DNA from: a bacterium
GTDB taxonomy: Bacteria; Desulfobacterota; Deferrisomatia; Deferrisomatales; Deferrisomataceae
Length of the DNA: 64,000 nt
NCBI GenBank assembly: GCA_027021615.1
Contig: JALUTY010000097.1
Location: forward strand, 1 to 64,000
Direction: 5' to 3'
Each line of letters opens with the position of its first letter. The first letter of the stretch is position 1. Positions 3,112-58,949 of this stretch are shown here, piece by piece. The position numbers and the translations under genes are program-made. The notes beneath the pieces were generated by a model. It was not told the origin of the DNA and ran no database searches. It was given only the letters and a program-made list of their open reading frames with translations.

Positions 3112-3391
3112 GGTTCAGTGGACAGATTTCAGCTTCGGTAGGCCGCAAGGCAGCCTGTTTGCGGGGTACAGACTTTGTGTACGTCTCGGTCCGAGCGGTG
3201 CGTGCGGGGCATGGGGTCTACCTCCGGCCGGGCGCGAAGCCGAGCATGAGATTCGCCGCGCAGGCACAACACACGGGAGTTGGTTTCAGCACGGGTGGGT
3301 GCAAGGGGTACCATTTCGCGGTCCGGGCGCCGGAGGCGCTGCGCGGCGAGCATAGGAGCCGCGCCCGGCTCTCCGGCAGACCCCATGCCCC
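3112..3391 (+). repeat. R2 left end followed by R1 copy 2
   Basis: 3112-3136 (GGTTCAGTGGACAGATTTC) is the left end of repeat family R2, also seen at 10346. From about 3139 the sequence is the reverse-orientation counterpart of 51716-51970. R1 itself is two-armed: the left arm begins GGGGCATGGGGTCT (about 3209), and the right arm, read on the other strand, begins with the same GGGGCATGGGGTCTGCC and ends at 3391. The arms match over roughly 60 bp, including a shared CGCCGCGCAG block. There is no coding potential in this gap. Confidence 0.8.
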
Positions 3392-3575
3392 CTAGCCCGC
3401 ATTATTCATGAAGCCTTCTGCTGCAACCGCCGATTGCACGCCATCTCGGGGCGTGCTCGCGCCTCGGGGCTCGACGTACCGTCCAGTACGCCTGCGCCCC
3501 TCGGCGCTGCGCTTGCCCCGATCTGACGCACACTCGACGGTTTCGCGACGAACGCTCATGAATAATGCGGGCTAG
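3392..3575 (+). mobile_element. MITE-like element, copy 1 (184 bp)
   Basis: Both ends read CTAGCCCGCATTATTCATGA in inverted orientation, a perfect 20-bp terminal repeat. The interior continues as an imperfect palindrome (CATCTCGGGGCGTGC against CTTGCCCCGATCT). A second, closely similar copy lies at 51971-52156. No open reading frame for a transposase fits, so it must be mobilised in trans. The outer CTAG on each side is probably a 4-bp target duplication: the related sequence near 10490 has CCGG at the same place with no insert. The IS family is not identified. Confidence 0.85.
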
Positions 3576-13656: not shown

Positions 13657-14421
13657 GTGAGGCCGCTCTCCGGGGAGGGGCCGCGCCCCTCGGCCCTCGC
13701 CCAGGCGGATCCCCGGGCCAAACTGGCCGCCTGCACCGGCGTGCTGGCCGGGGCGCTGGGCGCTGGGCCGGCCGGTCTGGTCCTGGCGGCGGCGGTGGTG
13801 ACCGTCGGGTGGTACAGCGCCCGGTTGGGGGTGCGGCCGCTCCTGCGGGGAGTGCGGCCGGTCGGGGGGCTGCTGGCGTTCACCCTGCTGTTCCATCTGT
13901 TCGCCACCCCCGGCGTGCCCCTGCCCGGAACCCGATGGCTGCCTGTGCCCCCCACCGCCGAGGGCCTGGTCGCCGGCCTGGGGGTGTGCGCCCGGCTGGG
14001 TCTGGCCGTGGTGGCCGCCCGGCTCCTCACCGCGGTCACCCCGCCCCGGGACCTGGTGGACGCTTTCCTGTGGGGCCTGTCGCCGCTGGAACGATGGGGC
14101 CTGCCCATGGCCGAGGCGGGCCTGAGCCTGTTGGTGGCGCTTCGGGCCGCACCGCTGGTGCTGTCGGAGGCCCGGGCGCTCGCGGCCGCGGTGTCGGCGC
14201 GGTGCCCGGCCGGCCGGACCCGCCTGTGGCTCCTGCGCCGAGGCACCGAGGCGTTGACGAGGCGGGTGCTCACCCGGGCCCGGTGGACGGCCCGGGCCCT
14301 GGCGAGCCGGGGGTGGACCCCGGGCCGGATCGGGTCCGACCGTTGGGTCCGTCGGAGGGGGGTGGACGCGGTTCTCTGGGGCCTGGGGGGAAGCCTGTTC
14401 GTGATGGGGATCGTGTGGTGA
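13657..14421 (+). CDS. EcfT/CbiQ-like energy-coupling factor transmembrane protein
   Basis: 254 aa with about five hydrophobic segments. The domain order and the C-terminal cytoplasmic ARALASRGW motif fit EcfT/CbiQ, which couples ATPases to substrate-binding S components in vitamin and metal ECF transporters. No EcfA ATPase or S component is in the window, so this is an orphan or works with distant partners. The start is GTG 13657. The TGA stop (14419-14421) is also the left flank of a TACCAA element; without it the stop would overlap the truA start as GTGA. Confidence 0.65.
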   Translation: MRPLSGEGPRPSALAQADPRAKLAACTGVLAGALGAGPAGLVLAAAVVTVGWYSARLGVRPLLRGVRPVGGLLAFTLLFHLFATPGVPLPGTRWLPVPPTAEGLVAGLGVCARLGLAVVAARLLTAVTPPRDLVDAFLWGLSPLERWGLPMAEAGLSLLVALRAAPLVLSEARALAAAVSARCPAGRTRLWLLRRGTEALTRRVLTRARWTARALASRGWTPGRIGSDRWVRRRGVDAVLWGLGGSLFVMGIVW

Positions 14422-14642
14422 TACCAATTTGCGATCAAGATGAGCTCATAGGGGGGCGATGTGGGGGCCGTCGGTCCCCCGCCGGAAAAGACGGCCTCGC
14501 CGAAGCCGGTACGGCTCGGTCCGCTGCGGCGCGTGAGAGCACGCGCCGCGGGCGCTCCCCTGCGCCGAGCGGCTTGAACGGCTCGGCCGTAGCGCTCCGG
14601 GCCAACGGCCCCCAGATCGCTGGCTTCGAATGCGACTTGGTA
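14422..14642 (+). mobile_element. TACCAA-ended element inserted between the EcfT-like gene and truA
   Basis: Begins TACCAATTTGCGATC and ends GATCGC..GCGACTTGGTA; the ends are imperfect inverted repeats over about 24 bp (TACCAA / TTGGTA perfect). It is flanked on both sides by TGA (14419-14421 and 14643-14645), consistent with a 3-bp target duplication. Its last base A plus TG of the right flank make the truA ATG. It encloses the palindromic repeat at 14463-14613. No transposase is encoded. Confidence 0.75.
14463..14613 (-). repeat. Palindrome-core repeat (family B), copy 1
   Basis: Bounded by GGGGGCCGTCGG and CCAACGGCCCCC (inverted). The core at 14526-14549 is a perfect 10-bp palindrome, GCGGCGCGTG and CACGCGCCGC, around the loop AGAG. 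On the minus strand it aligns with 52303-52462 through the core and its flank (GCGGACCG.GCCG, CGAGGCCG). It lies inside the TACCAA element. Confidence 0.75.
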
Positions 14643-15415
14643 TGAGCGGGTCGGAGCGAAACATCGCCCTGGTTCTCGAGTACGACGGCACCGGGTACGG
14701 CGGTTGGCAGGTGCAGCCCAACGCGCCGTCGATCCAGGCCGAGGTGGAGTCGGCCCTGGAGACGCTGCTGAAGAGCCGGGTCCGGGTCACCGCCTCGGGC
14801 CGAACCGATGCCGGGGTGCACGCCCTGGGCCAGGTGGTCCACTTCCGGACCCGGGGCCGCATCCCCCTGAAGGGGCTGTTCCACGGCCTGAACAGCCTCT
14901 TGCCCCCGGCCGTTGCGGTGCGCCGGGTCCACGAGATGCCCCCGGAGTTCGACGCCCGCCGCAGCGCCCGGGAGAAGACCTACCGGTACCGGATCCACCG
15001 GGCCGCCGCTCCGTCCGCCTTCGCCAGGCCTTTCAGCTGGCGCCTCACGGGGCCGCTGGACCTGACCGCCATGGCCGAGGCCGGGCGGCGGCTCGTGGGA
15101 ACCCACGACTTTGCCGCCTTTCGGGCTGCGGGGTGCGGGGCCGTCACCACGGTGCGGACGGTCACGGCCGTGGACCTGATCCGGCGAGGGGAGTTCCTGG
15201 AGATCGAGGTCACGGGGAACGGATTCTTGCGTCACATGGTCCGGATCATGGTGGGAACGCTGGTGGAGGTGGGCCGGGGCCGGATGACGGTGGGGGACGT
15301 CGCCGACCTGCTGTCCCGGCCGGACCGGGAGGGGGCCGGGCCCACCGCGCCGGCCCGGGGCCTGGTGCTCGTGGCCGTGCGCTACAGCACGAGCCCCCTG
15401 GGGTCGTTTCCGTGA
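14642..15415 (+). CDS. truA: tRNA pseudouridine synthase A
   Basis: 257 aa. TruA makes pseudouridine at positions 38-40 of tRNA anticodon stems. The catalytic Asp lies in SGRTDAGVHALGQ near residue 55, and YRIHRA and NGFLRHMVR are further family motifs. The ATG at 14642 is preferred over the in-frame ATG at 14630, which lies wholly inside a repeat. No Shine-Dalgarno precedes it, and the A of the ATG comes from the end of the inserted element. The TGA stop overlaps the next gene's GTG start by four bases (GTGA). Confidence 0.93.
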   Translation: MSGSERNIALVLEYDGTGYGGWQVQPNAPSIQAEVESALETLLKSRVRVTASGRTDAGVHALGQVVHFRTRGRIPLKGLFHGLNSLLPPAVAVRRVHEMPPEFDARRSAREKTYRYRIHRAAAPSAFARPFSWRLTGPLDLTAMAEAGRRLVGTHDFAAFRAAGCGAVTTVRTVTAVDLIRRGEFLEIEVTGNGFLRHMVRIMVGTLVEVGRGRMTVGDVADLLSRPDREGAGPTAPARGLVLVAVRYSTSPLGSFP

Positions 15416-20232: not shown

Positions 20233-20305
20233 TGGAAGCCCCCTTCGGCCCCTTCGGGGCCCTACAACGGGAAAGGTAACTTTCGTTGGCCCGGGTCCAT
20301 TGCCG

Positions 20306-20500
20306 GCGGCGGGGCAGGGGGCCTGCTTCCGGCCGCGCGCGAAGCCAGGCATTGCGATTCGCCGTGCAGGCACGGGGCACGGGCGGTGGTTTCATGACCG
20401 TTCGGCGGGGCACGAACAGGACTCATGATACGAGCGTAGGAGGCGCTGCGCGGCGAGCTGAGGAGCCGCACGCGGCTCTCCAGCAGGCCCCCTGCCCCCC
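20306..20500 (+). repeat. R1 copy 3
   Basis: Starts GGCGGGGCAGGGGGCCTGC, carries the arm segment CGCGCGAAGCCAGGCATTG, the shared GGAGGCGCTGCGCGGCGAGC block and the right end GGCTCTCCAGCAGGCC. It lacks the CCCGGCGAC left extension of the copies at 93 and 58669. Confidence 0.75.
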
Positions 20501-39786: not shown

Positions 39787-39794
39787 GACAGACT

Positions 39795-39850
39795 CCTTGG
39801 GCCTTCGGCCCGCTGGAAGGCGCGAAGGCTGGAAAGCCGGAAAGCTGAAA
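39795..39850 (-). repeat. Octad array upstream of the deacetylase gene
   Basis: Read on the plus strand: GGCCTTCGGCCC, then 8-bp units GCTGGAAG, GCGCGAAG, GCTGGAAA, GCCGGAAA, GCTGAAAA. On the minus strand the array ends in GGGCCGAAGGCC only ~8 nt before the ribosome-binding site. Confidence 0.65.
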
Positions 39851-39860
39851 ACCTCTCCTA

Positions 39861-51586: not shown

Positions 51587-51600
51587 TCCCACCTGAGTTC

Positions 51601-51662
51601 GGGCCTTCGGCCCGCTGGGAGGCTAGGAAGCCGGGAGGCTGGGAGGCTCGAAAACCTCCTTG
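51601..51662 (-). repeat. Octad array after the small secreted gene
   Basis: GGGCCTTCGGCCC, then 8-bp units GCTGGGAG, GCTAGGAA, GCCGGGAG, GCTGGGAG, GCTCGAAA. On the minus strand it ends with GGGCCGAAGGCCC, the same junction as at 3665 and 20561. Confidence 0.65.
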
Positions 51663-51715: not shown

Positions 51716-51970
51716 GGGGGGCATGGGGTCTGCCGGAGAGCCGGGCTCGGCTCCTATGCTCGCCGCGCAGTGCCTCCTGTGTCCGGACCGCGAAATGGTA
51801 CCCCTTGCACGCAGCTGTGATGAAACCAACCCCCCTGTTCTGTGCCTGCGCGGTGAATCTCAATACGCCCGGCTTCGCGCACGGCCGGAGGCAGACCCCA
51901 TGCCCCGCACCCGACGATCGGACCGAGACATATGCAAAGTCTGTGCCCCGCAAACAGGCCGCCTTGCGGT
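51716..51970 (-). repeat. R1 copy 4, minus orientation
   Basis: Reverse complement of the 3139-3391 region, with the two arms beginning GGGGCATGGGGTCTGCC and ending near GCAAACAGGCCGCCTTGCGG. Its left-flank sequence adjoins the MITE at 51971, where copy 2 instead runs on uninterrupted as TTCGGTAGGCCGCAAGG (3134-3150). Confidence 0.8.
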
Positions 51971-52156
51971 CTAGCCCGCATTATTCATGAAGCCTTCTGC
52001 TGCAACCGCCGATTCCACGCCATCTCGGGGCGTGCTCGCGCCTCGGGGCTCGACGTACCGTCCCGTACGCCTGCGCCCCTCGTGCGCTCGTGCTTGCCCC
52101 GATCTGACGCACACTTGACGGTTTCGCGACGAACGCTCATGAATAATACGGGCTAG
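51971..52156 (+). mobile_element. MITE-like element, copy 2 (186 bp)
   Basis: Ends read CTAGCCCGCATTATTCATGA and its inverse TCATGAATAATACGGGCTAG (one mismatch at the right end). It differs from copy 1 at only a handful of positions. The target site, reconstructed from 3134-3150, was GTAG/CTAG, so CTAG is probably the duplicated target. After it, 52157-52190 is an R2 left end on the minus strand. 52200-52300 holds nothing I recognise. Confidence 0.85.
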
Positions 52157-52302: not shown

Positions 52303-52462
52303 GGTGGGGCTGGGGGCTCTGACGAAGCGCGACGGCCGAGCAGACCGGGCCGCCCGGCGCCAGGGAAGCGGCTGCGGCGCGTGCCCTCACGCGCCGCAGC
52401 GGACCGCGCCGAGGCGGCCCCTGCGAGGCCGTTCAGCGAAGGAGGGGCCCCCAGCCCCACCC
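52303..52462 (+). repeat. Palindrome-core repeat (family B), copy 2
   Basis: Ends GTGGGGCTGGGGGC and GGCCCCCAGCCCCAC are inverted. The core at 52374-52397 is GCGGCGCGTG and CACGCGCCGC around the loop CCCT. It aligns with the minus strand of 14463-14613 across the core and beyond. It is not inside a TACCAA element here. Confidence 0.75.
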
Positions 52463-58668: not shown

Positions 58669-58889
58669 CCCGGCGACAAAATAGGCGCGTCACCTCGGAG
58701 GGCGGGGCAAGGGACCTGCCTCCGGCCGGGCGCGAAGCCGGGCATGAGATTCGCCGCGCAGGCACGGGATCGAAGAGATGGTTTCATGACAACTCGGTGG
58801 AATCCGAACCCTTTCGCGGTCCGAGCGTCAGAGGCGCTGTGCGGCGAGCTAAGGGACCCCGCCCGGCTCTCCGACAGGTCCATTGCCAC
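58669..58889 (+). repeat. R1 copy 5, most complete left end
   Basis: Starts CCCGGCGACAAAATAGGCGC 12 nt after the gmhB stop, and runs through GGCGGGGCAAGGGACCTGCC, the arm GCCGGGCGCGAAGCCGGGC, the GGCGCTGTGCGGCGAGC block, to the right end GGCTCTCCGACAGGTCC. About 50 bp are near-identical on the minus strand at 39904-39955. Confidence 0.85.
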
Positions 58890-58949
58890 CGATCATGGAA
58901 ACGAGCACGCCTGTTCTGTTGCCGGTTTAAGCCGAACCGAGGATGCGAG

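Follow-up and report, generated by a model that had tools for sequence, protein, structure and literature searches.

How a mobile element can enter the space between two genes that share a stop and a start codon is a question raised by one junction in a 64,000-nucleotide stretch of a Deferrisomataceae genome (hereafter the window). The upstream gene encodes an EcfT-like protein (13657–14421, + strand; CbiQ, PF02361, E = 8.9e-13) and has a 95% identical ortholog in G002, a genome of the same genus. The downstream gene is truA (14642–15415, + strand; PF01416, E = 1.7e-43). Read directly from the window, the TGA at 14419–14421, which continues to end the upstream gene, is followed by a 221-bp element at 14422–14642 (+ strand) and by a second TGA at 14643–14645. 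The element ends, TACCAA...TTGGTA, form terminal inverted repeats (TIRs), TACCAATTTGCGATC at 14422–14436 on the + strand and TACCAAGTCGCATTC at 14628–14642 on the − strand; the letters agree with the layout described in an earlier note on this DNA, the ends being imperfect repeats. Between them lies a long palindrome (element positions 35–199; 14456–14620, + strand) which, by self-match and folding, is predicted to form a strong hairpin, and the DNA fold of the whole element reaches −70.8 kcal/mol (z = −4.4). An Rfam search of the element for structured RNA returned no match worth noting.

The empty site in a relative

Relatives lacking the element would be expected to carry the junction GTGTGGTGAGC. 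In G002, the sole empty orthologue of this junction compared, the same gene junction lacks both the element and one TGA and reads GTGTGGTGAGCGGGT, matching the prediction base for base. Identity of the flanks is 95% on the upstream side and 99% on the downstream side, and when the window flanks are joined across the site, 117 of 117 bases match G002 (...GGGATCGTGTGGTGAGCGGGTCGGAG...). The alignment to G002 ends at ...GTGTGGTGA and restarts at TGAGCGGG..., the two halves overlapping by exactly TGA. Since the halves overlap in this way and the joined flanks match, the insert amounts to the 221-bp element and a single 3-bp duplication, and GTGAGC was the ancestral reading of the junction. The two TGA triplets at 14419–14421 and 14643–14645 are therefore, by direct reading and by this comparison, the left and right target-site duplications.

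The ancestral 4-bp overlap, in which the GTG start of truA shared bases with the TGA stop, corresponds to 14418–14421 (+ strand); it is intact in G002, and only its stop half is now used in the window. An unmodified overlap of the same kind joins truA to the next gene, which encodes a DUF4175 protein by Pfam (GTGA at 15412–15415, + strand), as the earlier note had pointed out. The empty orthologue also bears out two further proposals of that note, namely that the upstream gene kept its stop through the duplicated TGA and that truA exchanged its GTG for an ATG in which the element supplies the A, its last base, and the duplication supplies the TG. With the empty orthologue in hand, this junction is an instance of a transposable element entering a 4-bp stop/start overlap inside an operon with both frames left usable.

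Consequences for truA

That the two genes came through intact, as the earlier note suggests, is true of the reading frames (G002 TruA, which begins GTGAGCGGG, is 98% identical) and not of the signals around the truA start. The 4-bp overlap is lost, the GGGGA at 14406–14410 now lies more than 220 nt upstream of the start, and no Shine-Dalgarno sequence is visible in GCGACTTGGT, immediately before the new ATG. Because truA is left without the overlap, a nearby GGGGA or a visible Shine-Dalgarno sequence, its expression may be changed, possibly reduced, and translational coupling has probably been lost as a side effect, as judged from the sequence of the junction. An in-frame ATG at 14630 offers an alternative start. 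A hairpin joining stop and start in the mRNA was considered and rejected: in the RNA minimum-energy fold the left end of the element pairs with upstream sequence, so we do not claim that stop/start coupling is preserved. A search by consensus found no outward promoter in the element.

A second GTGA junction has been rebuilt to ATG by an independent insertion, a 75-bp element at G002 396270–396344 flanked by genes for a protein kinase and an FHA-domain protein (Pfam). For annotators, these junctions are a warning that a start codon may come partly from a mobile element.

A MITE family within the genus

Full-length 221-bp copies are present nine times in the genome that holds the window (G000; 92–95% identity) and 11 times in G002. 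Searching for the TIR with up to two mismatches gave 172 matches in G000, 210 in G002 and 95 in a further genome, G001, as against 4, 10 and 7, respectively, for a reversed control pattern. Nine other genomes of the order were searched and lack the TIR, so the family appears genus-restricted as far as these genomes go; plasmids and phages searched for the element gave no matches. For the statistics, 1.6 Mb was sampled from G002 and about 0.8 Mb, with the window as part of it, from G000; the tiles were in part picked for TIR hits, a choice that affects element density and leaves the comparison of stop with non-stop sites unaffected. These stretches hold 104 elements at 76 independent sites. The TIR consensus of this wider set is TACCAAGTTGCGTTCAAA, the repeats being imperfect and 15–18 bp long, and lengths fall into classes of roughly 66–96, 111–136, 215–232, 245–264 and 281–285 bp, with a few others up to 344 bp. 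Short (66–344 bp), multi-copy, lacking a transposase gene, bounded by imperfect TIRs and target-site duplications and matched by empty orthologous sites, the element belongs to a known kind, the MITEs. Another end of the family (TCA TACCAAGTTGCCATC) lies at 153–170, at the left edge of the window and with no clear partner end; it adjoins a diverged repeat (174–379) that recurs at 3204–3392, 20292–20499 and 58702–58890.

An autonomous partner that could mobilize these copies was sought by several routes, and none was found. In the 1.6 Mb of G002, a sample of about 40% of that genome, no TIR pair 0.6–3 kb apart encloses a matching transposase. None of 13 PF01609 loci examined has TACCAA-type ends as its own, and PF05598, PF13340 and PF13586 (DUF772, DUF4096 and DDE_Tnp_1_2) are absent from G000, G001 and G002. 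G002 carries seven PF01609 transposase copies with identical match scores and a 400-aa frame; one of these IS copies (2264849–2266611) sits inside a MITE of the TACCAA family whose left end is on a stop codon.

Target site and concentration on stop codons

The earlier note had predicted 3-bp duplications at other copies, and they are intact at 51 of the 76 independent sites: TCA at 25, TGA at 21, TTA and TAA at two each and TTT at one. All but one of these (50/51) are TNA. The elements thus go into TNA, with a strong bias towards TGA on one strand and a preference for C before it and G after it (CTNAG). C precedes 71% of targeted stops and 33% of control stops. Two insertions (G002 305587 and 2520457) lie near the loop of one type of palindromic repeat, GCATCGGC TGA GTGCCGGATGC, apparently another safe non-coding target.

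Gene calls came from a home-made program that uses codon usage and was trained on G002's long ORFs. At 41 of the 76 sites the duplication falls exactly on a gene's stop codon, a concentration that the earlier note had not noticed. Of the 46 TGA/TCA duplications that are intact, 33 coincide with stops, where 10.4 would be expected from the stratified availability of stop and non-coding TGA (p = 1e-12). The excess holds among insertions within 100 bp 3' of genes (33 of 41 on stops vs 22.8 expected; p = 7e-4) and under position-weight models of the flanking bases (p ≤ 1.5e-8). Inside called genes there is no intact TGA/TCA duplication, with 31,927 coding TGA/TCA sites available. Of the upstream proteins scanned, the majority have Pfam matches, which in many cases reach almost to the C-terminus, so the called genes are real. 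Where the two copies of a duplication have become unequal, a stop codon persists in the copy that ends the gene and is often missing from the distal one, a pattern that follows partly from the definition.

For four further stop-codon insertions, empty orthologues exist in which the stop is already in place, so the stop is older than the insertion. Insertions are polymorphic between G000 and G002, present in one and absent from the other in both directions, which indicates that the elements have moved within the genus.

A second MITE family and other repeats

A second and more abundant MITE family, about 228 bp long, has ends TGTTCCGTTTCGCAAA and makes CTAG duplications. It shares with the TACCAA family its size and a GC-rich core of ~110 bp that includes GGCGCGTGAGAGCACGCGCC, while its ends and target differ. 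In the element at truA the core spans element positions 70–178 (14491–14599, + strand; 82–86% identity with the second family), and the window holds it again at 52323–52432 on the − strand. Three of 12 intact copies of the second family are on TAG stops, compared with about 11% of available sites; in this small sample there is no clear excess, and the effect is much weaker.

Two other kinds of repeat were seen in the window. A large inverted repeat pair (3139–3392 and 51717–51973) is about 48 kb apart, with arms of 107 and 146 nt that are 88–90% complementary. Tandem 8-bp units (GCTGGAAA-like) follow a GGGCCTTCGGCCC hairpin at 39791–39859 and 51593–51653 and recur in several intergenic places.

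How the elements come to lie on stop codons

We consider it likely, at a probability of roughly 0.85, that the element at the truA junction is a precise and recent insertion of a genus-restricted MITE whose TNA duplication restores the stop codon, and that such harmless copies survive and accumulate on stops. A transposase, lost or unseen and of a type that we infer, would cut at TNA, mostly TGA/TCA flanked by C and G, and leave a 3-bp duplication. Where the target is a TGA stop, the duplication would hand the upstream gene its stop again; where that stop overlaps the next start as GTGA, the terminal A of the element and the duplicated TG would make an in-frame ATG. Insertions of this kind should cost little and survive, so that copies would build up on stops in a gene-dense genome. 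Together, the TNA rule and the survival of harmless insertions explain why genes are free of elements, along with a large part of the excess on stops, and we infer that survival rather than targeting is the main cause of that excess. The insertion, its duplication, the rebuilt start and the excess on stops are themselves shown by the comparisons above.

The gain itself could be questioned, since two genomes alone cannot polarise gain against loss, and the element might have been ancestral at the truA junction and then precisely lost in G002. This is very improbable: at the empty site the GTGA overlap is perfect, as at the neighbouring junction at 15412; elements of the TIR type duplicate their target when they move in and seldom leave exactly, taking one duplication with them; and several sites are polymorphic in both directions. 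A weightier question is whether insertion is actively steered to TGA stops rather than to TNA sites at large, be it by the transposase itself or by something in the host such as translation termination or a DNA feature of gene ends. Stops carry insertions at 2.5% of the available TGA, compared with 0.29% at 1–20 bp beyond them, 0.46% at 21–50 bp, 0.73% at 51–100 bp and 0.10% beyond 100 bp; this difference, the persistence of the excess after correction for flanking bases and the CTAG-type MITE, which has the same core and lies on TAG stops in no more than 3 of 12 copies, all speak for steering. Survival is supported by what happens as the gap to the downstream gene widens, because the excess over neighbouring sites then falls from 15-fold to about 3-fold. 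Over all downstream gaps the rate is 2.82% at stops vs 0.19% at 1–30 bp; at gaps of at least 60 bp it is 2.33% vs 0.23% at TGA sites 1–30 bp further (p = 0.004); and at gaps of at least 150 bp the excess is weaker and not significant (1.07% vs 0.36% at 1–100 bp, p = 0.14). The excess at gaps of at least 60 bp is not obviously predicted by plain survival and, as it is still significant, we keep active targeting as a reading, although an unlikely one. Against it also stand the lack of any known mechanism and the rarity of ATGA/GTGA among targeted stops (9/41 vs 734/1311 control stops), which resembles base preference plus selection and fits both the preference for C at −1 and selection against uncoupling.

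The strongest form of that reading is a bacterial transposition system in which translation stop codons are actively sought out: TGA would be both target and duplication, and the ends would have evolved to finish in A so that an overlapped NTGA start is rebuilt as ATG. This is likewise doubtful; if true, it would let the elements spread in operons and gene-dense genomes with no gene broken. Elements might instead be kept after stops by positive selection, their hairpins protecting mRNA 3' ends or terminating transcription. The strong hairpin would suit such a role, and eight of 10 stop insertions of one sub-family have the same end towards the gene, but the other sub-families have no clear orientation bias (5 vs 2 for the 221-bp class) and the sole terminator-like site in the element is on the antisense strand. 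Moreover, termination would harm insertions in operons, as at the truA junction and at G002 396270, and an element 1–30 bp past a stop should do equally well, where almost none is found. Neither the orientation of the elements nor the position of terminator-like sequence thus supports a function in termination or mRNA stabilisation, and we regard positive selection as improbable, more so than active targeting.

With accumulation by survival as the preferred reading, the 33 of 46 intact duplications on stops offer a quantitative case in which to ask whether safe sites are chosen by bacterial elements or merely reflect filtering by selection. They also raise the question of whether TGA-rich, gene-dense genomes are a built-in refuge for TNA-targeting elements.

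Comparison with known systems

In the open-licence literature searched, we found no MITE family concentrated on stop codons and no start rebuilt from element plus duplication; stop-codon occupancy by a MITE family appears to be undescribed. The nearest systems each share part of the pattern. Chunjie of Geobacter uraniireducens (Chen et al. 2008, Genetics 179:2291, doi 10.1534/genetics.108.089995) is described as a multi-copy MITE of about 178–235 bp with TIRs and direct repeats (PMC10969869). Like the element at truA, one copy lies inside an operon, by the title of the paper 'without disturbing the operon structure'; unlike the TACCAA family, neither a stop-codon preference nor a rebuilt start figures in that description (PMC10969869). 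QMITE1 and QMITE2 of Coxiella burnetii contact functional genes at the genes' 3' ends, a few of the elements ending exactly at the stop codon (PMC5896051). They differ from the TACCAA family in that their duplications vary in sequence and the genes are mostly extended into the element, and the available part of that source reports no duplicated stop codon or rebuilt start (PMC5896051). The IS1031 group of the IS5 family has a TNA target and a 3-bp duplication, and ISLrh is inserted into TGA (PMC12016507). The TACCAA family resembles this group in its TNA target, TGA included, and in its 3-bp duplication, whereas the ISLrh ends GAACCTGTCTAGTATCT (GAACCT...) differ from the family consensus (TACCAA...), which does not start with GA (PMC12016507). 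Elements of the MITE type in operons and at the 3' ends of genes are thus already known, as is duplication of TNA by members of the IS1031 group (PMC10969869, PMC5896051, PMC12016507).
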